Origin: Cinnamomum chago
Taxonomy: Eukaryota > Streptophyta > Magnoliopsida > Laurales > Lauraceae
DNA: 64,000 bases
Direction of reading: 5' to 3'
Assembly (NCBI GenBank): GCA_038049695.1
Contig: CP142456.1
Coordinates: 20,184,501 to 20,248,500, forward strand
Below, in pieces: positions 4,028 through 57,398 of the stretch. Positions within the stretch are counted from its first letter, which is position 1; each line of letters starts with the position of its first letter. The translations under genes and the position numbers were made by a program. The notes under the pieces are model-generated. The model saw only the letters and a program-made list of their open reading frames with translations, was not told the DNA's origin and did no database searches.

Positions 4028-5193
4028 AAGGTTTTTACGGGGAAAAAACCCACTTTATGTGGTCAGTACACTGAACAGTAACATTCAGCAAATATGCACC
4101 TAACAGGAAATCCGTATAGGATTCTTAATTTTTTTTTCCCAAATTTTTTTTTTGGTCAAATTCGACCTTCAGTTTCAGCGTTGGAGGTTGAATTCGACCC
4201 TGGGATAGAAAGTGACCGTAATACATTTTAGTTGTCTGCGTCGAATTCGACTTTGTAAGAAACACCCGAAGGTCGCATTCGATCAAAAATGTACATGAGT
4301 TTTTCTGACTTTAGGTACTGGGAGGGCAGTACATATTTTTAAAACATAAAAATATCCCCTATTTTGAGTCTTACGAGGGCAAATAAAAACATAAAGATAA
4401 AGGCAAAGGATGTCGTATAATTTTTTTGATGAAAAAATATCCCCTATTGTGAGTCTTTGTAAAATTTTCTGTAAGAAATTAAGTTGCATTTAATTAATCA
4501 TATTAATAACGATATTAGAGGTTGTAGAGGTTTAGAACCAAGTCAGTTATATTTTTCCACCTCATGTAAAAATTAGAAGGTCTAATTTGCATATATGGGT
4601 TGCGATATGGCAGGCCCTTTCCTTTCCTTCTCCTACTACTTCTTTCCTCTTACTCTCTTATACATTTTTCTCTTATCTTCTCTATTTCACCATCACCCCT
4701 ATGTTTCTTCTTTTTGTGTTTTTTTTTTCTCTCTCTACTCTCTTCCTACTTTGGGATGTTCCAGAATGACACTGGTTATTGATTCGCTCTTTTAATGATT
4801 GTTCCTAGAATTCAAACAAGAGGGATCCAAGTGGGATGAGTAGAGCTTCCTTTGTTGGGTTCACTTAGAACGCAAATTCCTAAAAATGATAGCCCTCCCA
4901 GTACCTAAAGTCAGAAAAAGTCATGTACATTTCCTGTTGAATGCAACCTTCAGGTGTTTCTTACAAGGTCAAATTCAACACAGAGAACTAAAATGTATTA
5001 AGGTCACTTTCTCTTTCAGGGTCAAATTCGACCTCCAACGCTGAAAATGAAGGTCGAATTCGACCACCAAAAAATGGTAAAAAAAATAAATAAATTAGGA
5101 ATCCATACGGATTCCTTGTTAGGTGCATGTTTGCCTAATGTTCCCTGTTCGATGTACTGACCACATAAAGTGGTTTTTCCTGTAAAAAACCTC
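4028..5193. mobile_element. MULE-type foldback MITE with 9-bp target duplication
   Basis: Two inverted arms of about 300 bp (4028-4335 and 4888-5193) surround a 550-bp spacer. The arms start AGGTTTTTAC and end GTAAAAAACCT, and share ACTTTATGTGGTCAGTAC and a GTACCTAAAGTCAG block. The 9-bp direct repeat AAATATCTA is perfect at 4019-4027 and 5194-5202. Long inverted repeats plus a 9-bp duplication are diagnostic of Mutator-like elements. The spacer has a pyrimidine-rich tract (4610-4750) and no transposase. Each arm carries palindromes derived from GGTCGAATTCGACC, mostly altered at CpG. Confidence 0.9.
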
Positions 5194-5261
5194 AAATATC
5201 TATAATTTTTTTTGGCAAATAAAATATCTATATTCATTTATGAAATGGTTGGGCTTTGGGG

Positions 5262-5626
5262 TAGAGGCGCTCATCAGCTGGGCCAGCCTGAGCCCGATTC
5301 GGGCCTAGCCTGCTTTGGGCCAGGCTTGGATATGTAATGAGAGCTCGATTAATAATTGGGTTGGGGCTTGGCTTGGATTAAGTGATAGAAAGCCCATAGC
5401 CGGGTCCGGCCCAACTTGTGTAAGAAATGCATGTAATTTTATTTAATTAGTGCTCTCATTCCCACAAAAGTGATGAAAAAGCCCATTTCGGCCCAGCTCG
5501 GTTGATTAAATAGGCGGGCTCGGGCCCAACTTTTATGGCTCGTGTCGGGCTTGGGTTGGGCCTGTGCCAATGTTTCTAAAGTCGGGTTGGGCCTGGATAT
5601 ACCATAGCTTGGCCCATGAACCTCTA
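5262..5626. mobile_element. hAT-like MITE rich in GGGCC words
   Basis: Ends TAGAGGCGCTCAT and ATGAACCTCTA form an imperfect inverted repeat. Flanks CTTTGGGG and CTTTGGCA agree at six of eight positions, as expected for an old 8-bp hAT duplication. The interior repeats GGGCCTGGC/GGGCTTGGG words, as in the better preserved hAT MITE at 53246-53722. Confidence 0.6.
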
Positions 5627-6743: not shown

Positions 6744-9438
6744 ATGATCCCTTGTGGGCGATCACATGTGTATATATTAACAACCTTTTATATGGCAAGA
6801 AATGTGCCAGAAAATTGTAAAGCCCAATAAAGCAATGCTTATGAAGATCCTGGTGAATACAAAGGACCACTTCTTGACGGCAAAGGTGAGGAGCGGGACC
6901 ATTTACCCGTTAACTTTTTTAATTTTATGTATATTCTTTGTGAGTTTTATTAAGTCATATGTGTTGATAATCAGAGTTTTTCCATTAAAGATGTAAGAGG
7001 AATTTCAAAAAAAAAAAAAAATTAATGCTGCCATTGGACCGAATCTGACAAATTATCTATACATGCATCGAATAGGGCAATTCACCCCAAAAACATTTTT
7101 TTGATGGTCGATATCGACCCTCATTTTAAGTGTTGAGGGTTGATATCAACCCTAGGCAGGCAGAAAGAAACAATTTTCCTCATCTCCTTCCTTCTTCCTC
7201 TCTTCCCCAAACCCAATCCAATGATGGAAAAAAACAATTTTGGGGCCTCTTTGGATTTGTTCTGCTCTGGAATGAGGAAGAAGAGAAATGACAGTCATTA
7301 ACATTCAACACTACTGAGAGTGATTCATTGATGCTCTATTGTAAATTCTCAGCCAACATAGCACGAAAAAGTCACGTATCTCACGTCCAAATAATTCAAT
7401 CAAATATCTCTGAAGGCCTCAAAAACTGTTTGTGGCACATGGGGTCTCTTTTCATCCAACCTTCAAGCAATCTTCAAACGTTCTTAGTGCTTCATGCATA
7501 AGTAGAGACGATTGGGTGATCTTGTTGTATTGGTGTAGATGCCAGTATAGGCTTTGGAATTTGAAAGAGATTCATTGAATTTGTCCAAAGACAGAGCATC
7601 ACATAGTTCTTGCCTTGCCATGTGGATGGAGATTGATCGGTTTGATTTGTGACCTTCTACTTACACTTTTTTTGCCGATACTAATCGAGCTGTGGACAGG
7701 ACCCATTTTTGGATGATTGTGTGGTTTTTTTTTTTTGGTAAAAGGATGATTGTGTGTTGCTAATTATGATAACGCTTGTTCTATTTCTTGATAAAAATAT
7801 GAAGCAATTGTTTAATTAGCAATGATGAGACCTGTTGTTTCAAATATTTGAGATATTTTGAACGTACAGCACGGGTTCCCAAATTAGTACATGCAATGAT
7901 TTGTGGTTTTTTAATGTACTTATAGAGAGGCCAATGAACAAGAACACTAGCTTACAAAGCAGGGATTCCCCAAATCATTACATGCTTTAGATTCAATTTC
8001 CATCAAGGTATCTTGATTCGCATAAATTTGTTGCAGGGTAAAAAGGAGTTGTGGTATGTGGACTAAGGCACTGGAAATTGCATTACTGGTAAGAGTTACT
8101 TGTGCTACTTCCATGCATTCATGCACACACCAGTACATCAAATACTGCTAAGAGTTACTTGTGCTACCTCCGTGCATTCATGCATACACCTACACATGAA
8201 ATCCAGCTGCTACATATACATTCTTTTATTTCGCCTCTTTCGTTTCTCATCCACTCATATTACTCTCATTTCGCAGAAGAAAACTACTACTTCAAATCAA
8301 TGTCAAACATCCAATCAATGTTCATATCCTTCAAAACCCAGTTCTCAAATCAGTTTCTAATCTCTGAAACTCCCCACTGCATAAACCATCTCTCACACTC
8401 TCCTAGCTCATCAACTCATGTTGGTTGACTCCAGAATATGCCATTTACGCTTTAGGCGATGCAGATGGATGATTACAAGCCATGTGAAGAATCGAATGCA
8501 GTCCAACAACGCCAATTTGAAATCATATGGGCTACCTGATTTAAAGGTCACTAATATAGCCTTGCTTAGGCAGGCCGTTCTAGCGCAGAAGATGGATACA
8601 TTGATATAGCCTTGTTTATGTTGTTTTCATCACTATACATGGATTTGATGCATTTAATTTTAATGGGTTATACTCTGATTAATGATATTGTAGTTTTACT
8701 TTCTGTTTTTCCTTTTCTTTTATAGTATCTAGATTTTAGTTATTTATGCTAACATACCTTATTGCTATTTTATCAATTGGGGCTAATGTGTTTTTACTTT
8801 CAATGTTTGGTTGCAGTTGAATTGGTTCTTACTTGAATAATTCATGAAACTAAAGGTAATTTTCTGCCTTTTGACTATATTATTTCACCTGCAACCATAT
8901 CTTCTAGTGCTTTCCATACGGTTGTGGTCATTGAACTTTGTGTTTATGCAGGTACTTAATCTCAATGGTATGGTTATTGAGATTATTCAGAAGAATTTAA
9001 AAAAATGAAAACTTATTATCACTGAAGGGGATGGATGGTTAAAGTTAAAACTATGATTGATTCTTCAAGCACACAAATTATCATCTTATTATTTTACAGT
9101 TGCATGCTACATACTGTTCATAGTGAAAATAGAGATTGAACCTTTTTGATTGATACACGACGCATCAACTTAATTATGGCTGTATTGAAGCCTTGACTTG
9201 GTCTCATTTGATATGAACCAAAACTCATTATCTGTAATGTGTTTTAGATTTACTTTTTAAATACTCATTTCCCATCCTTGACTTGCCCATTTGATATGAC
9301 CTTTTCGCCAAATTCTATAGGTATTGTTTTTATGAGCATGATTTTTTTTTCATAGTGTGCTCAGAATACTTGGCTTCAATAACTATGAATTTTTTTCCAT
9401 TGTTGTCCTATTACCATCTTGGTTTAATTAATTTCCAG
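6744..9438. other. Non-coding AT-rich DNA; palindrome module and a short direct repeat
   Basis: I recognise no gene here. At 7100-7160 two perfect palindromes, GGTCGATATCGACC and GGTTGATATCAACC, are separated by CTCATTTTAAGTGTTGAG. The arrangement is homologous to a block in the MULE MITE at 4028-5193, but with a different palindrome centre. At 8092-8207 a 58-bp unit starting AAGAGTTACTTGTGCTAC occurs twice in tandem. Open frames in 8100-8609 resemble no family I know. The stretch just before 9439 should hold upstream CUL1 exons if the gene were complete; I find none. Confidence 0.6.
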
Positions 9439-10119: not shown

Positions 10120-10396
10120 ACTCCTTGGCCTTTGCTATTCTTTCTTGCTTAGTGATGGAGGTCAAGAAACTATTAACCAAAGGAGTTACCCAAGGGGTCC
10201 TTTTATAGGAGATTCCTACCCATCAAGGAACCATTAACCCCCAACTATCACCTAACCCTTTAATCTCAACCCATTATTAATTGGTTGGCAATTGAGCTCA
10301 AAATAATTAGGCCTTTTAAATGTGCAGACAAGTGGGTATGATTAAAGATCCTTAATGGGCTTGTGGTCATGTGGACCACACTCATTTAATCCAACA
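9942..10396 (-). repeat. 3' LTR of the copia element
   Basis: Bounded by TGTAAGCTTAAG and TTTAATCCAACA on the plus strand, as is the 5' LTR. An extra partial copy (9697-9874) lies beside it because of the tandem duplication. The polypurine tract follows at 10397. Confidence 0.93.
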
Positions 10397-10827: not shown

Positions 10828-13800
10828 TGTAACGCCCCAATTCCGGATACCGAGAAAGTCGTCGGAATACCCGAAGTTGGCGCGCTACTTCCCGGAAAAT
10901 CTGAGAACTTCCAAGATCGTAGGCCCGTAGTGAGGTCCAATTTAAAACTTTAGAACAATATACTATCAATGGTTAAATTGCGGAAGCATAAGAAGTAAAG
11001 TGTAAGCAATAGGTATCAATATATATCAAATGTGAGTAGAACTGTAGTCTAGTTTTAAGAGTATCAGTTGATAAGAACAACAAAAGTTAATTACATAATT
11101 GATAACTAACCGGCTCACTACAAAATTCGCTCAAAGGCCCAAATCAAAGTAAGACTCTCAAAGCCCTGGCCCTGGTTCTCCACCCTCCGGCTCGACATCT
11201 GGGTCGGCCTGGCCCCAAACGTAATCTCCGACAACAGGCGCCTCTACGAGCGCAAGCGCGTCCTCCGCATGCTCAGGGTCAAGGCCTAAGCACCAAAGAT
11301 GGGTCAGATATAAAGATCTGGCAAGTCACAGTATACAAGTAACATAGGACATATATATCAAAAGAGTAGAGACATGTATGTAAATTAAGGAATAACAAGA
11401 TAAAATGATCTAGGCAGTTGAGCAAGATAACATATAGAATCAGGATAAAATACAACATCTAGTCTAATACAAAATGGCACATTCACACGAGCTAGATACC
11501 GCGGGATATTATGCCGCAGCCCTCCCATACTGAACACAGTTGCGGCGGGGAATCTCACCAGTGCTGGGGATTACTAACCCCGCAAAACACTCAACAGTCT
11601 CACCACACTCATCACTCAGGGAGACTGGATTCGGTATCGCACCGTCCGTCTAAAACATAGCTCATCATGATAGCCCACTCTACACTCATAAATAGCTCCT
11701 ACGGGGGATGATCAGTCCACAGGATGAGCTTAAATCAACCGAGTGAATGTCTATGCCGACTCGAGGAAACTCTAAAGGTCTGTGTCTGTCTAGGCTTTGC
11801 CTTGCGTGAACAAGGTCCTAACCAAGTCTCTAAGAGATTCATATAGCAATCAGTCCATGGATTACAATCCAAGTCCAAGCCCACTCGTTGGATCCATACC
11901 AAGGCCCATCAACACATGGCCTGGTCTAAAACGGTCCAAACGAGGCATCATATCCATTCCTACTGATAAACAGTCAACTCTCATCCAAATGAGTTATAAG
12001 TCAATTACAATACACCTCTCCAATTCTAAGGGTACAATAGATCCATACTTAGGCCATAAAAGGGCCCGCCTAGCCACAGACACGGGTCAGTGTTCTCCCA
12101 ATCACACTATCGGGTCACCTCTAAGATATCCTAGGTTCAGGTCCTCAATTTCCATTTAATTAACAGTTATCAACTATAGTAAAGATATAAGAGTGACAGT
12201 AATAAGGAAAGGTGAAGTGTGAACTTCGAATATGAGAATCAATAGGAAAATAACAACAGTCCAACCTAGGTAATAGACCACATTCAGGTTCAGGTCCATC
12301 TCCGGTAATTAGATCTCTAAATGAAGTCTCAGATGCCAAAGGATACTGTGTTTGGTGCTCCTGAGGTTACGGGCATCATTGACAACATTTAAGGATCGAA
12401 TCATCTTAGATTAAACAACCAAAACCCTAATTGGTGGTCCCCACGAGTCAAGGTTGAGCCACACCGTTGACTCGGGCTTGGCACGTCGATAGAAGTCCAT
12501 TTGGATGGTCAATGGGCCCTACAAACAATCACAACTTCAGAATGTTGAAAACTGGAAAATAATAATTCCCAGTGTGCTCGGTCGACCTGGCACAGGGCTC
12601 GGTCGATCGGGTACACTAGGGGTTGACTCCCAGGTCGACCCAGGTGCAGTGTGCTCGGTCGACCTGGCTGCAGGTCGGTCGACCGAGTGCACTGGAAAAT
12701 TTGGTCAAGCACCTGGAAGGCATGATCCAATCTCAGGGAAATTCCTGTGTGTTCGGTCGACCTGCTGGCCTGGGAGGTCGACCGCATACACAGAGAATCC
12801 TGGAAAGTAATGTCCCAGCTCTCAGGCAATTTTCCTGTAAATCCTGTGTGCTCGGTCGACCTGGAGCAAGGCTCGGTCGACCTAGCACTCAGGGTTTCTG
12901 GACCTGATGAAAAATCCATCTCCCAGTTGTTTTCTGCAAAAATAGTGTGCTCGGTCGACCTGGCACAGGGCTCGGTCGACCTGGCACACTGAACTTTCAG
13001 TCTGCAGAAAAAATAACTGAGACTGGGTTTTCTCCCAGTTTCAGTGTGCTCGGTCGACCAGGCACACGCAAAACTGCAGAAAATCCAATTTTCAGGGTTT
13101 CATCTTTTCAACCCGTTTTTCCACCAAAACACCTCCAATCTCTCCCAAACATCACCAAATCAATGAAAAACATATAAAGACTACAATGCACCATAATCCA
13201 ACACCAAAAAGGGGCCTTTAATCTTCCAAATGGGTAAAAACCCATCCATCAATGCCAAAAATCCATGAAAACTCAGCTCAAGGTAAATCTAGCACATGTT
13301 ATTGACTGAATTGAAAATTACAGATTCAAGAAGATAGAAACATATATCCTAAGTTAAATCAGTATATTGTACTTGCCTTAGTTGAGGTGAAAGGTTGTAG
13401 AGAGAGAGAAGAGAAGAGAAAACCCAAGCTAAGAAGATGATATTGCAGCTCCTAGAGTCCTCTCCAGCGCAAACCAGCTCAAAGCCTAGTTCTAAAAGAG
13501 AAATGAGAGAGAGGAAGAAGAGGGAAATGGAAGAGATGAAGAAGATGAATAGTAGCTAGGGCTGTCTTGGGAAATGAGCTACATTTATAGATTTGGGGAT
13601 GGGCTAAGGACTGAAATGCCCTTTATGTTTGTATGGGATTAGGGTTAGGGTAGAGGGCTTTTAGGTCATTAGGTGGGAAGGTTCTAGAAGAGTGCTTTTT
13701 ATGGATACCCCCCTATGGAACACTCTAATTCCTAGCTAGGGCCTCCCCTCACTAACTAACCCTAGAAATTGCAAAAAGGACCCCTATGACCCTAATACTA

Positions 13801-13939
13801 ATACAATTAGGCTAATCTAACTCAACTTAGGAAAATATAACTACCCTTACTAATCCCTTAATTAATATAATTAACTAATATATACTATTAAATAGTATTC
13901 AAATTCAAATTAAGGGCCCACAAGGGGTGGGGCCTCACA
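10828..13939 (-). mobile_element. Solo LTR 1, Ty3-type (Tekay/Del-like by size), 3.1 kb
   Basis: Starts TGTAACGCCCC and ends GGCCTCACA on the plus strand, with a perfect 5-bp duplication ATAAG at 10823-10827 and 13940-13944. A single LTR with a target duplication and no internal region is the product of LTR-LTR recombination. The minus strand has TATA box CTATAAATG at 13582-13590, about 350 bases from its start, followed by a CT-rich stretch typical of plant transcript starts. I therefore read it as minus. Its frames of 60-140 codons are by-products of repeats. The length and end style fit Tekay/Del chromoviruses, but no internal region is present to prove the lineage. Confidence 0.88.
12578..13066. 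repeat. GGTCGACC palindrome cluster in solo LTR 1
   Basis: Eleven perfect GGTCGACC octamers and one variant (GGTCGATC) occur in 490 bases, often within GTGCTCGGTCGACCTGGCAC. Several are paired, with GTGTGCTC on one side and GGCACAC on the other, giving larger dyad symmetry. The cluster lies 0.5-1.0 kb downstream of the probable LTR promoter. Confidence 0.9.
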
Positions 13940-13944
13940 ATAAG

Positions 13945-19633: not shown

Positions 19634-22600
19634 TGTAACGCCCCAATTCCGGATACCGATAAAGTCGTTCGAATACCCGAAGTTGATGCGCTACTTCCCG
19701 GAAAATCCGAGAACTTCCAAGATCGTAGGCCTGTAGTGAGGTCCAATTTAAAACTTTTTGAACCATATAGTAATAACAGTTAAATTGCGGAAGCATAAGA
19801 AGTAAGCGGAAGCAATAGGTATCGATATATAAGTAAAGTGTGAGCAGAACTACAGTCTAGTTAAAAGTATCAGTTGTTAATCAAAGTTAATACATATTTG
19901 TTGGCTACCCGGCTCACCTACAAAATTGCTCTCAAAAACCCAAAATAAGATGAACTCTCAAAACCCATGTAGATCATCTCTGCCCTCTGGCTCGACATCC
20001 GTGTCGATCGGGCCCCACGCGAACTCTCCAGCAATCGGCGCCTCTACCAGCGCTAGTGCATCATCTGGGATCCCTGGGTCAAAGCCTAAGCACCAAAGAA
20101 GGGTCAGATCTAAAAGATCTGGCAAGTCACAGCATACTACTAACATAGGATATACATATCAAGTGAATAGAGACAGGTTAAGTAAATTAAAGAATGACAA
20201 GGTAAAGAACTAGGCAGTTGAGCAATAAAAGCCTAAGGAATCAGGATAATATAAAACATCTAATCTACTACGAAATGGCACATTCACACGAGCTGGAATA
20301 CCGCGGGATATTATGCCGCGGCCCTCCCATACTGAACACAGTTGCGGCGGGGAAATCTCACCAGTACTGGGAATTACTAATCCCGCAAATCACTCATTAT
20401 CTCATCATCTCATCACTCAAGACCGGACACGGTATCACACCGTCCGTCTTAACCACACAGCTCATCATGATAGCTCCTCAACACTCATATAGCTCCTACC
20501 GGGGATGATCAGTCCACAGGCTGAGCTTAAATCAACCGAGTGAATGTCTATGCCGACTCAAGAATACTCTAAGGGTCTGTGTCTGTCTAGGCTTCGCCTT
20601 GCGTGAACAAGTTCCTAACAAAGTCTCTAAGAGGTCTGTACATCAATCAGTCTATGGATTATATTCTAAGTCCAAGCCCACTTGTTGGATCCATACCAAG
20701 GCCTATCAATACATAGCCTGGTCTAAAACCGTCCAAACGAGGCATCAAATCCATTTACTACTGATAAACAGTGCATTCTAATCCAACATGACTTAAAATC
20801 CCAATATAATCTACCTCTTCCAACTAAAGGTACACATCTCCACACTTAGGCCCAATAAGGGCCCGCCTAGACACAGACACGGGTCAATGTTCTCCCAAAT
20901 CACACTATCGGGTCACCTCTAAGATATCCTAGGTTCAGGTCCTCCAATTTCCATTAATTAACAGTTAACAGCTACACTAGAGATCTAAGATTGACAGCAT
21001 TAAATAAGGTGAAGTGTGAACTTCAACATGAGAATCAATAGGGAAATACAACGGTCCAATCCTAGGTAATGGGCCACGTTAGGTTCATGTCCATCTCCGG
21101 TGATTTGATCCCTAAACGAAGTCACTGATGCCATATAATACTGTGTTTGGTGCTTATGAGATTACGCGCATCATTGACAACTCTTAGAGGTCAAATCATC
21201 TTAGATTAACAACCAAAACCCTAATCGGTGGTCCCCACGAGTCAAGGTCGAGCCACGCCATTGACTCGTGCTTGGCACACTGATGGAAGTTCATTTGGAT
21301 GGTCAATGGGCCCCACAATCGATCAATCATAAAACAAAGGCTAAACTCACATCTTAGTGTTCACAGTGTGGCAGGTCGACCTGGCAAGGGTCGGGTCGAT
21401 CTGCTCCACGGGAATCAAAGTTGGAACTTGGTTTGGATTCTGGAATTTCCAATGTACCCGATTGACCAGGTGGCCAGCCAGTCGATCTGGTACACAGGTG
21501 TACCTGAGTCAACAGATTCCAGGCCAAATCTCAACTTTTGCACTAAAATCTGGGTTTGATGGAAAAAGAACCAGGTCATACACAAACTATTCTAATTGGG
21601 TTCAAACTCAATTTAGGTTAAATAAAGACTAATGGGTCTATAATTTCTAATTTCTAAAATTAAAGAGGTCAAGAAATATTATTTTAAAGGTAACAAGTTA
21701 ATTTATTCTAATAGGGTTCCATAAAGGCTAAGGGTCCTACTTTCCTGATTTTCTAAAACTAATGGGTCCCAGGTTCCAGTATCTTTTTCCTGAAATTCCA
21801 GTCACTGAGCTCGGTCCAGCACTGAGCTCGGCCAACACTGGTATTGGCCATGCACTGAGCTCGGTCCTGCACTGAGCTCGGCCAACACTGGTCTCGGCCA
21901 TGCACTGAGCTCGGTCCTGCACTGGTCTCGGCCATGCACTAAGCTCGGTCCTGCACTGGTCTCGGCCATACACTGATCTCGGCCATACACTGGTCTCGGC
22001 CATACATTGAGACCTGTTTTCAGGTTTTCTCCATTTCAACCCGTTTTTCCACCAAATCACTTTCAATCACTCCCAAACATCACTAAACCAACATAAAACA
22101 CAGAAATACTCCAATGCACCTCCATCCAACATTAATTTGGCCCATTGATCTTCCAAATGGGGGTGAAACCCATCCATCAATGTCCAACCATCCATCTATA
22201 CTAAGCTCCAGGTAGTTCTAACAAAATGAATAATAACATAACTGAACTAAAATCACTGAATCAATGAAACAGAACATACATTCTATGTTAAGAGTATAGT
22301 GCACTTGCCTTGAGAAGAGAACGTTGTAGAGATAGAGAAGAGAAAAGAAGAAAACCCAATCCAAATGCAAGAGGAAGAAGATGAAGTCGTAGCAGCTCCT
22401 AAGTGTATCTCTCCAGCACAACAGTAGCTCACTCACAGCTCTACGGGAGAAGAAATGAGAGAGAGGAAGAAGAGGGAAATGAGAGAGGAATAGTTGCTAG
22501 GGTTTTTCTTGGGAATAGTGTTATATTTATAGGATTTGGGGGTGGCTAAAGTCTGAAATACCCTTTAGGGTTGCATAGGATTAGGGTTAGGGTTAGGGGC

Positions 22601-40224: not shown

Positions 40225-40321
40225 GTACTAGAATTAGTCGTTAAACTAATTTTCATAGTCCATTTATGATCCTAAACCAAAATCTAACTTAAAAGATGAC
40301 CAATTTTCACTGGACTCAAAC

Positions 40322-40385
40322 TACGGTCCGATCGATCGGTCCGAATTTTGTCACAGTTAAGTGACAGTCCGATCGATCGGACCTG
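40322..40385. repeat. CCGATCGATCGG palindromes in solo LTR 3
   Basis: Two copies, GGTCCGATCGATCGGTCC and AGTCCGATCGATCGGACC, 45 bases apart. A stem-forming GTCACAGTTAAGTGAC lies between them. They are 0.75 kb downstream of the probable LTR promoter. Confidence 0.88.
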
Positions 40386-41540
40386 CAACGAATCCAGTTG
40401 CAGAACCTGAAACCGATCTTTTTCTTTCCTCTTTCTCTACATTCATTTCATAACCTGCATAGTAAAAAATGGAACCTCCTGTTCCCCATCAATAACCATC
40501 TCCATACACATCAAAATCACACTTATATTCATCATGCAATCCATTTAAACAATCTACAACTCAAATAACATTCTAAACATAAGGTGTAAACCAAGTAACA
40601 ATAAAGCTCAAGAAACACCATACTAAACACAAATCATTATTTATACTTGCCTCTAGTTGCAATTTGACACAAAACCCCTTTTTCCTTGAGGTTGATTTGG
40701 TATAAACCACCCAATTGAAACCCTAACACCATGTAACAATTCCAAAACGAATCCTTTATGAACTATCTATGACAAACATTAATTCTAATCACATATGAAC
40801 ACTTGTAAATCTAACAAAGAGTCTCAACTACTCACTTGACAGTTTGGTCAATGGAAATTTGAGATTTCCCTCAAACGTACTCCAAGAACTCTAAACACCT
40901 TAGTGAAGAAGATGATCCTTCTCTTGAAATTGAAGAAGAAATCATTTGAAAACCTCAAATCTGATCACAAGTGATCACAAAAAGAAGAAATGAAGAAGAG
41001 CAGCTCTCAACCTCTCTCTTTCTCACTGTTGCTAAGAACTCACCGACTGAACATCTTCTGGGGTTCATGTAGAGCCTTATGGAATACAAGTTTTGCACAT
41101 AAGCCCTATAGTCTCAATATATTTATAATATGAGTCAACTCAAGACCCACTTGACTCACTTTAAGTCCAATGGAAATGTGTATCTTATGAAAATCATTGT
41201 ACCCATTGAGATACACCTGATAGTATCAATTTCCACCACATTCAACGAAATACACATAATTTCGTATTTACGAAAAAGTCTTTCATCTCACTAATTTGAG
41301 TCTAAATTCAACTCGATTAAGCCAATCTCTTCCAAATTCATTCATTACGCTTAATTCATTCATTCAAGACTAATCTGATCCGTTACAATCATTAATCACT
41401 ATTAAATTGACTAATCATGCTTAAGATGCATTAATCGTGATTAATTAAAGTTAAGCTCGATTAACTCGGGTTGGGGTGTAACACCTAACAAGAAAACATA
41501 AAAAAATGTTCTCGATTTTATACTTTTTCTTGTTAGGTGT

Positions 41541-43665: not shown

Positions 43666-43686
43666 TATATATATATATATATATAT

Positions 43687-47253: not shown

Positions 47254-47262
47254 AAGATGCAA

Positions 47263-47590
47263 GGGACATTCACTTCAAAAATCCCCTTAAATAGTTTAAT
47301 AACAGCTGAGGACCCTAAATTTTAATAATAACAGCCAAGGACCTCTTGCCCAAAATCCTTTTTTTTTTCATTCCATTTTTTCCCTTGGTAAGTTGATGTC
47401 GACATAACCCTAAGAAAAGAAAACGTCCTTCATCCCAAATCTACAGTGAAGAGAAGAAAGAGAGGAAGGAGAAGAAGGAGATCGACGCCCTATCCATTTT
47501 TTCTCAATCACAGTGAAAGGAGAAGAAGGAGGTCGATGCCCCACCCATGTGAAAGGAGAGGAAGGAGAAGAATGCCCATCTCGAACCCCA
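47263..47590 (+). repeat. Left TIR of the 11.1 kb MULE
   Basis: Inverse of 57940-58408. It carries about two units of the 60-bp repeat that is expanded in the right TIR. It contains AGTTGATGTCGACATAAC (47390-47407), a palindrome variant of the internal array. The arginine-rich frame 47446-47691 is a product of these repeats. Confidence 0.88.
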
Positions 47591-47699
47591 CATCACCATC
47601 TCTCCTGCTCGTCCCCCTCTTTTCCTCTGCATCAAAATCCTCAAATCTCAAGGTAAGAAACCTCCAACAGTTTCATTTCGTTGAACTTTAGAATTCAGC

Positions 47700-48524
47700 A
47701 TGGAGTTATTGATATGCATGTATTTTGCTTTCTTGGGTTTTGAGGGATTGCAAGTTTTTTTCTAGTTTCCTTGCATATTTGATTCATATTTTTTCATCAG
47801 TTTGCGTTATTGCTCTGAATCTTGGATTTTTTTAGTGTGTGACTGTCTTTCATCCATCTATTTTGTGATTGTTTTTCATCCACCTACTTCTATAATCTAT
47901 TGCTTTGTTCTTTTCACCGAATCTTCTTTTTGGTTTTTCTTCAGTTTCCATTATCAAATTTCTCTTGTTGAATAATACCCTTCTAGACCACAACAACTTG
48001 CAACCCTCTTCTCTATGCACTTTTGTCGAATAGGTTCTGTGCGCAGGGGTGGTTACAGAATAGGAAATTTGATATTTGATTGTTTTTTAAAGAGAAAAAG
48101 AAGACATTAGCATGTGAAATCACAGATGAAATCGACAACTTGGTGGACATTAGCACGGTAGAGAAATCTGCACTGGTTTCAACATATTCAGCATGGTTCT
48201 ATGACAAAAATAGCACGGTTCAAGATAAGTCAAAACATGTTATTTTCCTGAAATCTTTGGGGAGCTAAACATTGATAAATTTACTTTGGAACCCCAGAAT
48301 TTTGGCTAAGAACAATTTCGGGAAGCTGAGTTTCCAATAGCCTAAACATGGCTAATCAGTCACACCATGCAGATTTTCTGTAGCAAAACATGGTCAGGTA
48401 GGCATTTCTAGACATGCATATCTTTTTCGTTAGCATGGATTTTTCACTTCTTTTTTCTTTTTTGTGTTCATTCATCATTGAAGATTCAAATCCAGCCATG
48501 GGATTTAGAATTAAGTCATATTAG
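47700..48524 (+). other. Probable MULE leader intron (non-coding)
   Basis: AT-rich with T-rich runs. I find no MuDR similarity before the solo LTR. Confidence 0.4.
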
Positions 48525-50137
48525 TGTTAGAGTTTTTGTTTTGTTGCAATTTGATAGGATGCATTCATTTTCATAGCTTGACCTCTCATTCTTTCATGTT
48601 CTTATTCTTAAGATCTCCATGCATATTTCTCTTTCATAATCTTTGTTTTTATCATATGTTATGCATGGTTTTCAAATCAGTTTGTCTCTTATGTTCACAA
48701 AGGTTTGAGTTCAGTTTTCAATCTTCCATATGTTTAAACCTTAAGCTCAAATCTATTCAAGCTTTCCAAATGCTTTATCTTTCAAATCCTTTCTTTGGTT
48801 TAAATGTTTCATGCTTTTAAAATTCTCTTTATCATCATATTTTAAATCATGATTCAAGCTTGGTTAATGTGCCTCAAAGTCCCCTGGAAAGATGCCCTCA
48901 TAGTTGCAAGTTTTTGAAATTTCAGAATTTCTGGCCAGTCTTTAGGTCGACCTGCCTGTGTGGCCGGTCGACCGGTCACACTGCTGGTCGACAGGGATTT
49001 TGAGTTGTAAACTCCACCAACAGGCATTTTTATAGCCGTTGTGTGTACCCGGTCGACCCGGCCCTGTACCAGGTCGACCGGGCACTAGCCGTTGGGAACT
49101 TTTTCTTTATAAAAAGTGGCTTTTTGTTTGGAAAAAATTGCTGAACTTTCAAGGACTTTTGAGGCCAAGGACTTACAACTTTTCTAGAGTATTATTGAAG
49201 GGATTATGAAGCTATTCCATTGATTCAACCTTTGATCTTCTAATGGGTGTGCTTCCTTTATCCTAAGTCTTTTAAAATCATGCTTTGTCTCTTTATCTTT
49301 GTTTTTCTTCAATGCATGATTAAATAGATGCTTACCTTTTGAAGTGTTGTGTTTCATAACATGCTTTGAACTTTGAAATATCATAGCTTTATGAATCCAA
49401 CATATAGTTTTTGTTTCACATGAAATTGTTTTCTTGTTTCAAAACTAACTTATTAGACTTAAGTTTATTTTCTTTAAAAACAAGTTAGTTCACTTTAAAA
49501 AATTCATGTGCTTGTCAAACAACTCTTTCTGATACATATGATTATCAGCTTTGCATCAATTTAAAGTTTCATCTTTCTAAAAAGAGATAGAGTGATTTCT
49601 AGTATATGCATTATTCATAGATTTTGTCATTCATATGCATGCTTCTAGAAGTTGAGATTTTATTTTCTATTTAGCCTATTTAGAGGCACTCATTTGCACT
49701 TACATTGTTCTCTTAATCCATGCATTCATAGGCATTTTTCTTAAGAGAAAATCTTCTTGTTGTAAAGGTTGGTGCTTAGCCTTGAAAAGCATGGATAGTG
49801 TTGTAAAGGTTTATGCTTAGCCTTGGAAAAGCATAGTGATGTATTTGTAAGGTTGAAGGTGAACCTAAACCTTAGTTTGAGTTAGTGAAAATCCGGTAGG
49901 GACACCGGGAGTGGATGTAGGCATGTTGGCCGAACCACTATAAATGCTTGTATTATGGTAATGGTCTTTATGCTTACTTTTCATGGATGTTGCTCTCTTG
50001 TTTGATTCTATTATTCTTCTTCAAAGCATAAGAGATTTAAAAGCAAAGTGAATTAAAATTGGTCTAGTTATTTGAGCTCACCCTATTCACCCCCCCCCCC
50101 CCCCCCCCCCCCTCTAGGATTTGATCTTGGACTTTCA
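48525..50137 (+). mobile_element. Solo LTR 5, SIRE/Maximus-type copia
   Basis: Starts TGTTAGAGTTTTTG and ends CTTGGACTTTCA, with a perfect ATTAG duplication at 48520-48524 and 50138-50142. The stretch GGGAGTGGATGTAGGC, a GCCGAACCAC block, and a final CTATTCACC plus poly-C plus CTCTAGG are hallmarks of SIRE/Maximus LTR ends. TATA box TTTATAAAAAGTGGC is at about 49110. Five GGTCGAC-type palindromes (48945-49085) lie just upstream of the TATA box. The poly-C run at about 50091-50112 may be of uncertain length. Confidence 0.88.
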
Positions 50138-50567
50138 ATTAGGTCAATCGTTCAAGTTCAAAAAGTTGGGCCTGTAACACAGTATTGCAAACTTCAAAAT
50201 TCATGCATTCATTCTAAGAGTTTGATATTTTTAGAATTGCATTAGTTTCATTTTAGGATTGCATAATTCATTCATTCTTGCATCAATAAACAACTTCAAT
50301 TTAGTGAATCTTGCTCAAATAAAGCACAAGTCATAGTTAAAGGAGCTTGCAGAAAGCTTAGATAACTAGTTTAATGGATCATTGTAACTAATTGATTGAA
50401 ATATACATATAAAAACTGTCATAAAATATTTTTTTTTAAAATTTAGCTCTATGGATTGCTTAATGTCTACATGACGTGGTTTTATTATTGATTTTCTGAA
50501 ATAATGGCTTCAATTGCTTTTTTTATGACATGGTTTTATTTTATTTTATTTTTGCAATGTCTACAGG

Positions 50568-51065
50568 ATGTCAGAGGAAGACATTGAAGCCATTTTTTCC
50601 TTTTCGCCCAATCACTTGTCATCGGAAGATTTTTTGCGAGAGGTTGTTAATGATGGTCCTCCATTAGGGGAAAAAATGCAAGATGATTTGGGATCTCATG
50701 CGGAACCGTCGAATGTTATTAAACATACTAACATGCCAAACACTCTTGTACCCATTGACGATTTCAGCAGCGAGTTACTGGAGAGTACTGCGCATGAGTT
50801 GTGGAAAGGGCAAGTGTTTCTATATCGTGATACATTTAGAAATTTTTTTGCAAAATTTGCAATGTACAAGAATTTTGTGTTGAAGCGTCTGAAGATTAAC
50901 AACTACAAGGTTACTACACGGTGTGGCAATGAAACATGTTCGTGGCGTGTACATGCTTCTATTGTGGATTCAGGTCCACAATTTCAAATCCGGACATACA
51001 TCCAAATCATTCATGCTCAAAACCAACCATGGGGATGGCACACAAAGAAGCGACATCAGCCTTGA
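50568..51065 (+). pseudogene. MULE transposase (MuDR family) N-terminal part, broken
   Basis: The start ATG follows a 3' splice site (TCTACAG|G). The protein has an acidic N-terminus, then HELWKGQVFLYRDTF and FFAKFAMYKNFVLKRLK, and the cysteine pair CGNETCSWRVHASIV, then FQIRTY. This is the MuDR N-terminal DNA-binding region. A frameshift just after IIHA moves the continuation (KPTMGMAHKEATSALITKQQ) into another frame, and the catalytic DDE domain does not follow; a minisatellite takes its place. The gene is therefore a fragment of about 165 codons against 600-900 in intact MULE transposases. Codons fit the family, so loss was not ancient. Confidence 0.9.
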
Positions 51066-51105
51066 TCACTAAACAACAAACTATGGCTCTTATCTTTTGG
51101 TAATA

Positions 51106-51480
51106 GCAGAGCCATTTCTTTTTGCAATGGTAGAGCTGATGTTCTCTTACTACTTTTTGTAAAGGACTATCGAAGGACTTTTTGTCAATGTGGCACCATG
51201 TTTTTTTGTAAAGGTGGAGTTGAAGTTCTTTTGCTACTTTTTGTAAAGGATGGCCATTTGAGATTGTGAATGTGGCACCATGTTTTTTTTGTAATAGTGG
51301 ACTTGAAGTTCTTTTGCTACTTTTTATAAAAGAGGGCCATTTGAAATTGTGAATGTGGCACCATGTTTTTTTGTAATGGTGGAGTTGAAGTTATTTTGCT
51401 ACTTTTTGTAAAGGAGGGTCAATTTGAAATTGTAAATATGGCACCATGTCTTTTTGTAATGGTGGAGCCTCATCTTATTT
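51106..51480. repeat. 83-bp minisatellite replacing the transposase C-part
   Basis: GGCACCATG recurs at about 51191, 51273, 51358 and 51441, each in the context TTTTTGTAATGGTGGAGTTG and TTTTGCTACTTTTTGTAAAG. Four to five units with period 82-85. Confidence 0.9.
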
Positions 51481-51789
51481 AGAAGGTTGTAAAGGAGCAT
51501 AAATGTTCTCTTTTTGTAGTAAATCAATTTGGATACTAATGTCCTTCTTACTTTTATGTTTTTGGTTGATTATTTATTTTCGATAAATCTGGTTGATGAC
51601 CCCAAGTTTTAACAAAGAGTGTATTATTAATGTATCTCCCAAATGCTTTCTATGATGATGGTCGGATATGCAACAATTTCTGAAAAATGTGATTGGCTTA
51701 AATGTGCATTTGACGTAGGAGTTTTGTCGTACCACCAAAATTATTAGTTCACAACATTGGAAATATCCTTGTACAGAACATGTTTTAAA

Positions 51790-52272
51790 AATAGGATTTG
51801 TTGACATCGACACAAAATTTGTCGATATCAACATAAACTTTTGTTGACGTCGACACAAACGCCCAGTTAGCACTATAAGTCACCATGTGAATTTGTTGAC
51901 GTCAACAAAAGCTTTGTTGACATCAACATAAACTTTTGTTGACATCGACACAAACGCCCAGGTAGCACTATGAGTGACCCTGAGTTTTTGTTGACGTCAA
52001 CACAAGATTCGTCGATGTCAATATAAACTTGTGTTGACGTCAACAAAAACTCCCAGTTAGCCCTAAGAGTGACCCTGCGTTTTTGTTGACGTCGACACAA
52101 GATTCGCCGACGTTAACATAAACTTGTGTTGACGTCAACAAAAACTCTCAGTTAGAACTAAGAGTGACCCTGTATTTTTGTTGACATCAACAAAAATGCC
52201 CAGTTAGCACTATAAGTGACCTTGTGAATTTGTTGACGTCGATACAAGATTCGTCGACGTCAACATAAAATA
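51790..52272. repeat. Array of CpG palindromes (ancestral GTCGACGTCGAC), about 94-bp period
   Basis: Fifteen 12-mers of the form GTYGAYRTCRAC in about 480 bases, many within TTTTGTTGACGTCAACAAAA, separated by CCCAGTTAGCACTA-type spacers at about 51856, 51950, 52042, 52138 and 52190. Thirteen of the 15 differ from GTCGACGTCGAC only at its three CpG positions. It lies between the transposase and Ulp1 remnants. Confidence 0.9.
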
Positions 52273-52704
52273 ACCTATTCGGCAATTTTCATCTTGCCAC
52301 ATATACAACAAAAAATTAACTTGTTGAGTGAAAGCATTTAGAAGCTCCAAAATACACATTCACCACCCATATTTACAAGTTTTTCAAAATACCCTATCAC
52401 ATTGACCATCCTCACCTTCGAAAAACATTCATATCAACATCTATTTTTGTCAACATCAACCTGGCATTACAAGTTCTCATCTGTTGAAGCTATGCTACAA
52501 TAGTATATTGTATTTCTCATTAACAACTTTTTTAGCAATTTTCATCATTATTACCAAAAAAAAAAAGTAACTTTCAATTAGATTCAACATTCAAAATCAT
52601 ATACATTAACAAAAATAGTTCTATCAAATAATCTAAATCACACAAGAGTCCTCAACGTTTTAACACCTTCTTCTCCACTCAAACCATGACTCAAAACACT
52701 TGAC
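52273..52704. other. Non-coding DNA 3' of the Ulp1 exon
   Basis: AT-rich. One more weak palindrome variant (GTCAACATCAAC) lies near 52458. No gene. Confidence 0.5.
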
Positions 52705-52968
52705 TCACACAGAAGATCTCAATCTTTTCTCATACATTTCACGCTGCTTGATGTAGAGGTCGACAACTAATTTGCACTTGTAGTACATCATGTCCTATTG
52801 AGTGAAAGAAATATTTCGGTTAAGGACAGGATGCTCTACAAATCCCATTACAAAAATTCCACAATTGTTTGAATTATCTTGTATTGGTGTGTCTTCAACA
52901 TGGTGCCTTGTCCAACTTTTAGGGTCCTCCCATCCAAACTCGGCGAAGCAGTCGTTCAGCCAAATAAT
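52705..52968 (-). pseudogene. Ulp1-like (C48) SUMO protease C-terminal exon, captured by the MULE
   Basis: After a 3' splice site (TTTTTCATGTAG) the minus strand reads IIWLNDCFAEFGWED, then WTRHHVEDTPIQDNSNNCGI, FVMGFVEH, and after one stop DMMYYKCKLVVDLYIKQREM to a final stop. Q-(D/N)-NSN-(D/N)-CG-IFVM is the active-site cysteine block of Ulp1/SENP cysteine proteases, which remove SUMO from proteins; the last helix also fits. A TAG stands in the FTQ.DMMYY segment, so the exon is broken. Upstream exons with the catalytic histidine and aspartate were not found within the MULE. Ulp1-like genes carried by MULEs are known in plants (Kaonashi type), so this is probably a cargo gene convergent with the transposase. 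Confidence 0.87.
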
Positions 52969-52980
52969 CTACATGAAAAA

Positions 52981-53245
52981 CAAGATATAGTTAGAAAAGT
53001 CTTAAGGAGATACAAGTATTTAAAGCATAAGAGATACATGATACAGTTAGGAAAGTCTCAAGGAGATACAGTTACGAAAACTTTGAAGCATAAGATAGTA
53101 CCAGATGATCTCATATTATAATAGTTTTGACTCTTAAGTCTTAACCCCTTACATCTAAAATACATTACTTGTCGCTAATATTGTTTAGTCGTTTTATGAA
53201 AACAAACATTCCATAAATGGGCATTTCACCTTTATTTCTCCCAAC
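52981..53245. other. Non-coding, short direct repeat
   Basis: A unit of about 58 bases with AGATACAGTTAGGAAAGTCT and a partner at 52985 occurs about twice. No exon recognised. Confidence 0.5.
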
Positions 53246-53722
53246 TAGGGGTACTGTTCATGGGAGGGTTGGGCGAAGGTGAGTAATATCTAGGCCCGGC
53301 TTGGATTTTAAACCACAAGCCCAAGCCCTACTTGGGCCATAAGTACCTGGCCTAAGCCCGCCCACCTAAAATAGGTTAAGCCCCAGCTCGTCTAGTTATT
53401 ATATTTTAGAAAAAAAGGACAAACATTAACTGATTCAACTTGTAGCTCATCTAGTTAGGATGCTTGTTTGTGTGTGAGAGTACATGTGTTCATCTCCTCC
53501 TTCCAACAAGAAATTGTTGTTTTTTCTTGAACAGTGCCTCTCACTCGGTTCAGGCCAGGCTTTAGGGTTTCTACCACTCAATCCAAGTCCGGTCCATATA
53601 TTTAATGCGCCCAAATTTTATGTCCATGCCCAACCCGAGTACCTAAACTTAAGGCTAAGCCCGGACCAAGGCGGGCTGGCCCCAATTCTCACTTTGGCCG
53701 GCATGGTACATGAGCACCCCTA
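53246..53722. mobile_element. hAT MITE with perfect 8-bp target duplication
   Basis: Ends TAGGGGTACTGTTCATG and CATGAGCACCCCTA. Flanks CTCCCAAC at 53238-53245 and 53723-53730 are identical. The interior has AGGCCCGGCTTGG and CAAGCCC words. The frame 53484-53786 is spurious. Confidence 0.92.
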
Positions 53723-53730
53723 CTCCCAAC

Positions 53731-54409
53731 ATAAACAAGAGAGTAGTGACGGTTTAAAACCTTCCTTCCTTTTTGATAGAAAATGATTATTCACCTCGCT
53801 AAAATGAAACCTAGCACCCCTTCATGTAATCTACAGGTTAAAAGACTTCGAACTAAAAGTACTCCACATTGAAGAGGCCATACCTTGAGATATCAATACC
53901 CAGGCAACTGGGCAAGTAAGATTATAAAGTTGGGACATAATCACCAATCACAACAAGGGCAATTAGTCCAAAAACCATAGAAAGCTAGATTATTCACGGA
54001 AGTTGAGCTTTTATATATAGTCCCTGCATAAGGGAGTTACCCCTGCAAGTGTGAAAAATCTCATTTCCAAGTATTTTCATGCATAACTTGTTGATGAAGA
54101 ATCAATATTTACAAAGGGGAATCTATGTTCTGGAGTTGTTAGTATACACTAATTCATAGCAAAAGAGATCAGGTAAAAAATAAAATAAACTGAAAGACAC
54201 TCCTAGAATCATGCCCCAAAAAGGAATTTAGTGGCTAGATGGTAGCTATTAGACAAAAAAGAAATAGTCAAACCAAGAAGATCAGCTAGAGTTATGGTAG
54301 GTGCGAGGAGCATTGGTCATGGTCATCAGGGATAACTCCCAGATATTGGACTACATGAAAATAGAAAATTCCCAAGAGGAATTCCAATTATACCATATTA
54401 AAGCGGAGG
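53731..54409. other. Non-coding MULE interior
   Basis: No exon, repeat or site recognised. Confidence 0.4.
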
Positions 54410-54414
54410 GTTGT

Positions 54415-57398
54415 TGTCACGTCCCCCGAACCCGATTAGAGAATAAACCGGATCCGGAGAGTGAAATTTAGGACTAATTAAAAATTTTGTCCTTTAGGCC
54501 CAAGGATCGTAAGTCCGCTGTGAGGATATAATATTTCAAACCTCAAGTAATATAAACTGCGGAATTCATACAATTTGAGGCACATTGAATTTCAAGGCAA
54601 TGCATAATAAATCTCATTAATAATTGAAGTTGCACAAAGAAATAATAAAACTAACCAAGGAATTAAAGTATTAACAAAGGCCACCCCAATAACCAAGGCC
54701 TTTTAAAAGAACATGATGTCAATAAATGAAAGGTCCAACGATAAAATAATAAATGAAGAAATAAAAGAATCTAATGAGGTCCCCATGAATCTCTCCCGTG
54801 CCAGGATCAATGACGCTACTCTACGTCATCGGCACGCCACTCTCGTTCCTCCTCAACCGGTTGGAGATCCTCTGGGATCTCCTCACCTGATTGCTCCTCG
54901 TAATAGTACTCACCTGAGGAGTCTGCACACCAAAGGATAGAGTCAACGACATGTTGAGCAATAGATAAGCAATATATAAATAATCATGACATGCATCAAG
55001 TATAAGAGTAATGACAGGTATAATAATCAAGAGAATACAAGGAACAATACTAGGCATGCAGCATGAGTAAATAACCATCAGGATCATAAATAGAAATCCT
55101 AGCAATACTAACAATCACCACTACCAATATAATGCAATGCACAAGAGGGAGACTCCGTGGATGTCCTAGCCACCTCACGGGGTACCAGTAACAATCCTAT
55201 CCAGACTACTGATACCAAAGTCCGGCTCCAGGGGGATCCCAGCTCCCGGTCCTGGGAATAGTAGCACGGTCCTAGCCCGCTCCCAACTATTCAACGCCAT
55301 GGACGCCGTCCAAAGCCGACTGCCCACCCCGATGTCCGAGTAACCGGCCCATCAATAAACCCCCAACTGCAGCTGGCCATGATATGCAAATAATAATAAT
55401 AATAATGTGGTGTTGACACGAGAATAGACCAAGACAAGCAAGTCTGGCTAGCTCAATTTGCAAGACATGTTCGTAGGGATTATCTCATTCAAATCAATAC
55501 ACGACAAAACCAATCACAAGATAATCCCTTCAGTCTAGCCAGTCATGTTCATCAATTACATAACACGGGGTACTAAGGTACACTCTAAGTCCAGTCCAAG
55601 TCCTAATTCTACAAGGGATTATGTTTCATAAATAGTTAAGTGTTTTATGCCAAGAGAGAGTGTACAAGGAATTATAACAACGGATACGATTAAATAAGTC
55701 AAGGAGGAATTACGATCCAAACCTAGGTAAATGGTGTCATCCATGTATTTTACATGTTCTAACGGAGTACGTGTGGAATTGGATCAACGATGCTTCTAAG
55801 AAAATCCCTTGGTGTACAATCATGTTAAGCATCCATTAATTCAGTTCCATACGCATTCGGGTACCCCATGTTTAATACACGAATACCTAGACACCTAATC
55901 GAAGCACACCAAGCCACGTGCTACGAATTAATCCTCATTAATGGTCAACTGATAGTAGTTTCATGGTTTCCAACATCTAAGGCCCAAACCTAAGTTACTA
56001 GTCTCATTTCTACTAAAATATAGACTGGGTCAATAATTTGAGTATTTACATCACTTCCCGACCTCCGATCGTGATGAAACTAGAACCATTGGATTCTACA
56101 TCTCAAGAGCTTTCCAACGGTATATTATATGTAAAATTCCGACGGGCGGATTAAAAGTTACGGGCGTTTCAAAATGGTATGTTTATATACCCCTCGGGTT
56201 CCCGGCGTCCGGACGCCCGGAACCTGGCGTCTGGACGCCCGGAACCAGTAAGGGTGCGCAGAGGTTCTGTGTTCTGGCGTCCAGACGCCCGGGACCTGGC
56301 GTCTGGACGCCCGGAGACAGAAACCCTCCGCTGACGTCCGTTTTTGCCCTGTTTGTTCAACTAGCCTGCACAAACACTGTACCCTGCACGAAATTGAGCC
56401 TCCTGCTCTCCCAAAAATCCATTCTCATCAATTTTACATCCATTCTAACACATTAGAAACATCAAAAAGGGGACCAATTTAATAATTAATCTAATCCATA
56501 CCACAAATCTAACCTAATCCAAAATCACTATCCTAACCAGGCTTGGTATTAGGGAAATCTAACAAGAAAATCAGTACAATCAATGAAGAAGCAAACACCA
56601 TGCTTAATTATAAATTGCAATCTACTTGCCTCAACCAAGGAGATGATTAGAAATTGGGAAAAGCTTGAGGAGAAGCTCTCTTTCGCAAAACCCACAATCT
56701 AATCCAACCAAACGCAATCTAAAACGCAACGGAGAAGAAAAGAAAGAAAAAGATTAAGATCAAGCCTAAATCTAAACCAAAGAGAATCGATTGAAAAGAT
56801 GAAAGTGAGTAAAACTTACCCAAACCAGGATCAAGAGAGAGAGAAGATTGAGAGGAAGAAGATAAGCGGTTCCGATCGCGGAGGTGATCTCTCCCGGGTA
56901 GAGTTCTGGGCTTGAGAAGAGAAGAGGAAGAAGAAAAGGCTGCTGTAACTCTTGTTCGTTGCAGAGATGAATAAAGATTAGGGCTAATCCCTGATTAAGA
57001 AGAGAGGGAAGGGAAAAAGACTAATTTGCCCTTAAGTGGGTCCGGCGAAAGAATGGGCCATTAGAAGGGTTTCTGATCGTCGGATCGCGACGAGCCAGAA
57101 GACAAAAATGATCAGCGCGACGAGACCTTTCTAACGAACCCAAAATCACGGTGATAGAAATTTTTCCAGAAAAACACTCAATTTTCCCTAATTAGCAAAC
57201 TACCCCCCTGCTAAGATCAAACGAACTCGAAATCGAACGAAACTTCGCAGACACTATCCTAACACTAAAAGAAACTCGCTCAAAGACTAAACCCACTTAA
57301 ATATCTAAAATACAAATAATTATAATAATAATAAAAATAAACGGGTCAACGGGCCTGATATTGGGCCCAATTGACCCAGTAAGGTCGCGGACCTTACA
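54415..57398 (-). mobile_element. Solo LTR 4, Ty3-type, 3.0 kb
   Basis: Starts TGTCACGTCCCCCGAACCC and ends GCGGACCTTACA on the plus strand, with a perfect GTTGT duplication at 54410-54414 and 57399-57403. On the minus strand a CT-rich leader-like stretch follows about 400 bases from the start, but the TATA box is weak. It is a third family, different from solo LTRs 1/2 and 3. It lies inside the MULE. Confidence 0.88.
56204..56312. repeat. GGCGTCCGGACGCC palindrome cluster in solo LTR 4
   Basis: Four copies: GGCGTCCGGACGCC, GGCGTCTGGACGCC, GGCGTCCAGACGCC and GGCGTCTGGACGCC, each followed by CGG and AACC/GACC words. Three of the four show a CpG transition at the centre. Relative position in the LTR is as for the clusters of LTRs 1-3. 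Confidence 0.9.

Follow-up and report, generated by a model that had tools for sequence, protein, structure and literature searches.

Introduction

The closest described counterparts of the sequences analyzed here are the repeated motif (RM) boxes of Sirevirus retrotransposons and the motif arrays of Mutator-like elements (MULEs). In the available text of Bousios et al. 2010 (PMC2829016), RM boxes in Sirevirus long terminal repeats (LTRs) are palindromic and have a CGG-CCG core. An element carries at least 8 copies, starting 200-400 bp into the LTR (3 and 4 LTR copies in Sorghum and Citrus), and the boxes bound CpG islands, with a TATA box on average 37 bp after and a C-rich integrase signal on average 21 bp from the LTR end. 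The other Ty1/copia elements considered in that text lacked RM. In maize, palindrome clusters in the LTR cis-regions of Sireviruses have strong predicted structure and are small-RNA hotspots (Bousios et al. 2016, as reported in citing papers). Among MULEs, VANC target motifs form arrays in the non-coding DNA of Arabidopsis VANDAL elements (PMC5735166, PMC10398659), and in a mosquito Muta1-type MULE a 12-bp subterminal repeat occurs 9 times, separated by 3-4 bp (PMC5225508). Here we describe clusters of CpG-bearing palindromes in the nested mobile elements of one stretch of plant-like DNA, a 64,000-nucleotide window from Cinnamomum chago (CP142456.1, positions 20,184,501 to 20,248,500, forward strand).

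The clusters are real and partly known. What appears to be new is the presence of similar boxes in long LTRs, a half-site pair shared by Mutator-type elements, and spacing by helical turns. All motif counts refer to this one window, and conservation across whole families is beyond the reach of a motif known from one window.

CpG palindromes are clustered beyond chance

The window contains 59 perfect, CpG-bearing palindromes of at least 8 bp, while 200 local (500-nt) dinucleotide shuffles averaged 26.1 and never exceeded 39. Non-CpG palindromes also exceeded their shuffles (328 versus 260.4); the count alone is therefore not specific to CpG, and clustering is the better test. For this we recorded palindromes that have another near copy no more than 130 bp away, excluding AT-only palindromes and using 60 local dinucleotide shuffles as the control. 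Twelve loci were obtained. Ten were CpG-bearing, against a shuffle mean of 0.17 and a maximum of 1, while the two non-CpG loci were at chance level (mean 1.63, maximum 5). When the ten cluster regions were masked, 29 CpG palindromes remained against 22.5 expected, and 15 of the 200 shuffles reached 29 or more; there is no clear excess outside the clusters.

Chance was thus rejected as the cause of the clusters by the shuffles on count, on clustering and on half-site classes (see below). This is consistent with the original prediction, made from the sequence alone, that CpG palindromes are enriched beyond chance in LTR and DNA elements alike: clusters occur in solo LTRs, in a miniature inverted-repeat transposable element (MITE) and in a large MULE. 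Two of the ten CpG loci are the two arms of this MITE, and we rejected them as independent clusters since an inverted repeat copies any palindrome by definition. The locus at 28782, a single 10-mer with one imperfect neighbor, may be a chance product. It is doubtful, as is the case near 37.4 kb, where the exact TTTCGGCCGAAA named in the original prediction is absent and three one-mismatch copies are found.

The clusters fall into about six families: a 3.1-3.3 kb solo LTR with two copies (A1 and A2), two other solo LTRs of 2.8-3.0 kb (E3 and E4), a Sirevirus-type solo LTR, the large MULE, and the MITE with a related fragment (Table 1). To call all the elements unrelated, as the original prediction did, overstates the case: A1 and A2 (solo LTRs 1 and 2) are one family, and the motif at 7.1 kb lies in a 62-bp stretch with 76% identity to a MITE arm.

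Table 1. Cluster-bearing elements and their palindrome arrays. Coordinates are positions in the window; element borders were set by terminal TG...CA plus target site duplications (TSDs). TIR, terminal inverted repeat.
Feature	Coordinates	Strand	Description
Solo LTR A1	10828..13939	-	3112 bp; TSD ATAAG; strand inferred from TATA box common to A2
GGTCGACC array in A1	12580..13059		11 exact copies
Solo LTR A2	19634..22909	-	3276 bp; TSD TAGGG; family of A1
A2 region corresponding to A1 array	21374..22011		A single exact GGTCGACC with decayed copies spaced 20 bp; tandem array follows
Solo LTR E3	38719..41483	-	2765 bp; TSD CCTAA; TATAAAT at 41127 (-)
E3 array	40326..40382		Two GTCCGATCGATCGGAC-type 16-mer palindromes 41 bp apart, hairpin between
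Solo LTR E4	54415..57398	-	2984 bp; TSD GTTGT; inside large MULE
E4 array	56204..56311		Four GGCGTCYRGACGCC 14-mers (one perfect); spacings 22, 50, 22
Sirevirus-type solo LTR	48525..50137	+	1613 bp; TSD ATTAG; inside large MULE
Sirevirus-type array	48945..49079		Four exact GGTCGACC plus one GGTCGACA; 21 bp within pairs
MULE-type MITE	4028..5193		9-bp TSD AAATATCTA
7.1 kb fragment	7106..7151		GGTCGATATCGACC and GGTTGATATCAACC 32 bp apart; MITE-arm-like
Large MULE	47263..58408	+	9-bp TSD AAGATGCAA; hosts Sirevirus-type LTR and E4
MULE array	51799..52265		15 TGTYGAYRTCRACA-type slots; 95-bp tandem array; spacings 21, 22, 52
TIR boxes	47392..47403		GTTGATGTCGAC in left MULE TIR; partner 58270-58281

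The Sirevirus-type LTR carries a published box

The cluster in the Sirevirus-type LTR is the published RM box in its published layout and hence a known feature; the statement in the original prediction that no description was known is therefore wrong in part (Bousios et al. 2010, PMC2829016). About five copies of the octamer had been reported here: four are exact and the fifth has one mismatch. They occupy LTR positions 421-555 of this solo LTR, whose internal part is missing, and CCGGTCGACCGG at 48964 carries the CGG-CCG core. As in the RM boxes described in that paper, the palindromic CpG cluster lies just upstream of a TATA box (TATAAAAAG at 49108, 28 bp after the last octamer) and a poly-C tract lies near the LTR end (23 C at 50090-50112; the LTR itself ends 25 bp later, at 50137). 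The Vitis box CGGTCGACCG given there contains GGTCGACC.

Similar arrays occur in long solo LTRs

The original prediction correctly counted 11 copies of GGTCGACC in A1. Most are in pairs 20-21 bp apart, with 99 bp from pair to pair, and paired octamers are nested within matching GTGTGC/GCACAC arms. When six units were anchored on the octamer without gaps, the octamer was 100% identical and the nine preceding bases 90%, compared to 31% on either side. By eye, some changes in the outer arms of these units looked compensatory, an impression on which we base no claim.

A2 is 83% and 73% identical to A1 on the two sides of the array, while the array region itself fails to align (22-56 matches per 100 columns versus 61-92 elsewhere, in full windows). 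The array is 881-1360 bp from the putative 5' end on the minus strand in A1 and 897-1536 bp in A2. In family A the position of the cluster is therefore kept and its content is not. That other copies of a family might lack the cluster had been named as the finding that would speak against the original prediction, and A2 bears this out in part: it retains the position, the one exact GGTCGACC and relatives with one or two mismatches, and has a different 17-bp array in place. This 17/34/50-bp tandem array (21803-22011) is without GGTCGACC, a turnover of array content inside the family. Neither of the CpG-decayed forms GGTTGACC and GGTCAACC was found in the whole window, as compared to 16 intact octamers; looser decayed forms are present. 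Between the 3' parts of A1 and A2, 28 CpGs have decayed and 38 are shared. An LTR end of about 0.9 kb is almost CpG-free in both (13071-13938 in A1 and 22017-22909 in A2; observed/expected 0.06 and 0.12), while the remainder keeps its CpGs.

The host of A1 and A2 is a copia element on the minus strand. Its LTR copies are at 24499-24956 and about 9940-10396, it has an exact primer site (24487-24498), and the pol fragments around A1 and A2 are part of it. Its 3' LTR region (9631-10119) contains a 245-bp tandem duplication at 96%.

For E3 the predicted count of two CCGATCGATCGG was exact, and the array is 1102-1158 bp from the putative 5' end (minus strand). Beside it, two identical 298-base copies with 304-bp spacing (39623-40224) represent a very recent tandem duplication within the LTR, and a short inverted repeat, TGTAACACCTAACAAG / CTTGTTAGGTGTTACA (41476-41544), spans the end of E3 together with the target duplication. 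On the other hand, the exact count of four GGCGTCCGGACGCC in E4 was rejected: one copy is exact and the other three each have one mismatch. The E4 array is 1088-1195 bp from the putative 5' end (minus strand), and a TATA-type box, TATATAAA, starts 14 bp past it on the minus strand (56189). A1 (at 13589, minus strand), A2 and E3 each have TATAAAT about 350-380 bp from the putative 5' end, followed by pyrimidine-rich DNA.

Apart from the A1/A2 pair, comparison of the A, E3 and E4 LTRs gave only short weak matches (best E 0.11). These arrays differ from the Sirevirus RM boxes of the available text (PMC2829016) in several respects. The LTRs of A1, E3 and E4 are 2.8-3.3 kb, compared to 0.54-1.68 kb in the table of that paper, A2 likewise exceeds this range, and none of the four has a long C run at its ends. 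In addition, the A1 and E3 arrays do not adjoin the best TATA box. Similar boxes in long LTRs without the poly-C signal seem to be new and to go beyond the published Sirevirus RM paper.

Mutator-type elements share a half-site pair

The large MULE has TIRs that are 83% identical over 343 columns and encodes the N-terminal part only of a MuDR transposase (50529-51062; PF03108, E 7.9e-8). It thus combines the long TIRs, the TSD of about 9 bp and the MuDR-type transposase expected of a MULE. Fifteen copies of a GTCGACGTCGAC-type motif had been predicted inside it. There are indeed 15 slots, four of them the perfect palindrome GTTGACGTCAAC; these are variants, exact GTCGACGTCGAC is absent, and 15 as an exact count was rejected. 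The element also contains an 83-bp-unit tandem array (51182-51467). In the MITE, where palindromes had been predicted in both arms, there are four GGTCGAATTCGACC-type slots per arm; because the arms are inverted copies, this is one observation, not two. No partner arm for the 7.1 kb fragment was found in the window, and the large MULE gave no match to the MITE arm or to this fragment of the kind that these two give to each other.

The pattern GT(CG/TG/CA)A-NN-T(CG/TG/CA)AC occurs 23 times in the 64 kb, a count swollen by tandem copies within one array, compared to 0.365 (maximum 3) in 200 shuffles. The large MULE accounts for 15 occurrences, with one in each of its TIRs, the MITE for six and the 7.1 kb fragment for two; there are none elsewhere. 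Each of the other spacer lengths between 0 and 11 yielded 0-3 hits. GTCGA-NN-TCGAC was noticed before it was counted. To offset this we scanned 2552 classes of CpG half-site and spacer, among which it ranks first (shuffle maximum 9). At the NN center the MITE has AT and the 7.1 kb fragment TA; the large MULE has CG together with forms decayed from it. TA could be derived from CG by two deaminations, and a symmetric switch of the center is therefore not proved.

Among open papers we found none on GTCGA-NN-TCGAC in MULEs, although the motif string itself was not searched. Like VANC target arrays, which differ among related families, the MULE array consists of short motifs in tandem repeats in non-coding DNA (PMC5735166, PMC10398659). 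Its motif differs from the VANC motifs of PMC5735166: in the available text of these two papers the VANC21 motif is YAGTATTAY and the VANC6 motif AGTTGTCC/AGTTGTAC, and neither is called a palindrome there. We identified no VANC gene in the window, in which no systematic search for one was made. Muta1-type MULEs also have repeated short motifs within long TIRs, but as described these are not CpG palindromes at helical spacing (PMC5225508).

Spacing and folding of the clusters

The shortest distance between boxes is 21 bp in family A, the Sirevirus-type LTR and the large MULE, 22 bp in E4, 32 bp in the MITE and 41 bp in E3. In a Monte Carlo test of 10.5-bp phasing, which left out the distances 12, 20, 24 and 26 and those of A2, 7.1 kb and 37 kb, p was 0.00005 for these six and 0.00025 for 12 distances including 78, 65 and 50. 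Periods of 10 and 11 fit worse. We found no open paper on helical phasing of LTR palindromes.

Predicted RNA folding was scored against 40 dinucleotide shuffles per region. The z score was about -13 for A1 (each strand), -12 for the MULE, -7.6 for E3, -7.0 for E4, -5.7 for the Sirevirus-type array, -4.7 at 7.1 kb, -4.4 for the MITE arm and -2.9 for A2. Three neighboring controls gave 0.4-0.6 and one, on an A1 flank (flank3), gave -2.95. Palindromes fold by nature, so folding does not separate RNA from DNA roles. Rfam and tRNA scans of the window gave no match. Paired GGTCGACC was found in at least 119 stretches of viral contigs, but large GC-rich collections should contain a bare pattern of 16 bases by chance, and we made no use of these hits.

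Other features of the window

Outside the large MULE there is a tandem array with an AT-rich unit of about 42 bp (26469-27125). The first part of a MADS-box (SRF-TF) domain is encoded on the minus strand at 1-222 (E 1.3e-17). At 29125-31418, direct repeats of about 260 bp with 90% identity, 2.03 kb apart, are possibly a small LTR element; they have no clear palindrome cluster.

Discussion

The reading we favor, with moderate confidence, is that the clusters are arrays of sites for dimeric DNA-binding proteins and serve as cis-regulatory or anti-silencing platforms. It is suggested by the restriction of clustering to CpG palindromes, the conservation of the A1 core relative to its flanks, the absence of GGTTGACC and GGTCAACC beside 16 intact octamers, the phasing, the shared half-site pair and the proximity of the Sirevirus-type and E4 arrays to TATA boxes (28 and 14 bp), and it has precedents in the Sirevirus RM boxes and in the VANC motif arrays of VANDAL MULEs, as far as these are described in the sources above. 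A protein-docking role was among those proposed in the original prediction and may be correct: conserved cores, dyad symmetry and helical spacing fit it. The arrays would occupy regulatory non-coding parts of the elements: the vicinity of a TATA box for E4 and the Sirevirus-type LTR, a central position for the long LTRs, and both the TIRs and non-coding internal DNA for Mutator-like elements. Tandem duplication would let them grow and be replaced while selection for binding keeps the core. The spacing would put neighboring dimers on the same face of the helix, and CpG within the box would make binding sensitive to methylation, tying occupancy to silencing or its reversal. The likely outcome would be transcriptional control in LTRs, and transposase binding or VANC-like anti-silencing in MULEs; different proteins may serve different families.

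Several observations weigh against dimer-site arrays. A2 was presumably able to move although its array is lost. For A1, A2 and E3, the best minus-strand TATA box precedes the array by 0.5-1 kb, which would place the array in the leader and not in the promoter, and all of these LTRs are solo remnants. The distances 12, 24, 26, 65, 66, 78 and 50 are off phase or merely near it. Finally, the phasing test was post hoc and covers few families, of which A and the Sirevirus type share a motif; it is a lead, not proof.

It could be speculated that the palindromes act in RNA, with pairs forming transcript hairpins for dimerization or packaging or as a small-RNA source that draws silencing. The fold energies of A1, the MULE, E3, E4 and the Sirevirus-type array are far below their shuffles, the paired A1 octamers are nested in complementary arms, the arrays of A1, A2 and E3 would be in the leader if the minus-strand TATA boxes are used, and maize Sirevirus palindromes are reported as small-RNA hotspots. 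That precedent concerns one genus in maize and is backed by small-RNA data, while the present clusters are known from sequence. However, a TATA box follows closely on both the Sirevirus-type and the E4 array, which are thus outside the 5' part of the RNA, the A2 region folds no better than one A1 flank, TIRs of DNA transposons need no transcript, and folding explains neither the 21-bp phasing nor the restriction to CpG. We consider an RNA role unlikely. Another possibility is that chance palindromes were amplified by slippage and unequal exchange and have no function. Most clusters do contain tandem repeats, A1 and A2 have different array content at one position, and the exact 304-bp-spaced duplication beside the E3 array shows that such growth is active. 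Neutral growth should amplify non-CpG palindromes equally, yet only CpG loci exceed their shuffles (10 versus 0.17, as compared to 2 versus 1.63); nor does it account for identical A1 octamers in diverged flanks or for one half-site pair recurring in three Mutator-type elements, and this explanation is distinctly unlikely.

The arrays could also act as methylation platforms in their own right: as CpG islands they would seed methylation or escape it, and palindromy would be a by-product. CpG observed/expected in the Sirevirus-type array is 0.89, with 0.08 and 0.14 in the adjoining DNA; in the A1 array it is 0.68 compared to 0.06 on one side. CpG islands bounded by the boxes are reported in PMC2829016. 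On its other side, however, A1 has 0.69, and E4 has 0.77-0.85, so that the arrays are not special there; such platforms would moreover require neither dyad symmetry nor fixed spacing, which makes this explanation very unlikely. That the palindromes are landing sites for other elements is disfavored and extremely improbable: plant LTR elements weakly prefer palindromes at insertion, a preference that the available text of PMC6911290 itself calls slight, and none of the five solo LTRs with fixed ends had inserted in an array.

Dimer-site arrays could be extended to the idea that retrotransposons and DNA transposons of one plant independently gained CpG dyad arrays at whole helical turns, read by one methylation-sensitive family of host factors, or by convergent factors, with GTCGA/TCGAC half-sites central; mobile elements that are otherwise unrelated would then have a regulatory language in common. 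We regard this broader proposal as rather improbable. DNA elements are not treated in the available text of PMC2829016. If the favored reading is true, Mutator-like elements and other long LTRs would share a feature reported as specific to Sireviruses among Ty1/copia elements, and its sensitivity to methylation could be tested directly. If dimeric proteins read the arrays, the boxes with their spacing would serve as probes in the search for what turns plant transposons on or off, and for whether LTR and DNA elements have this switch in common.

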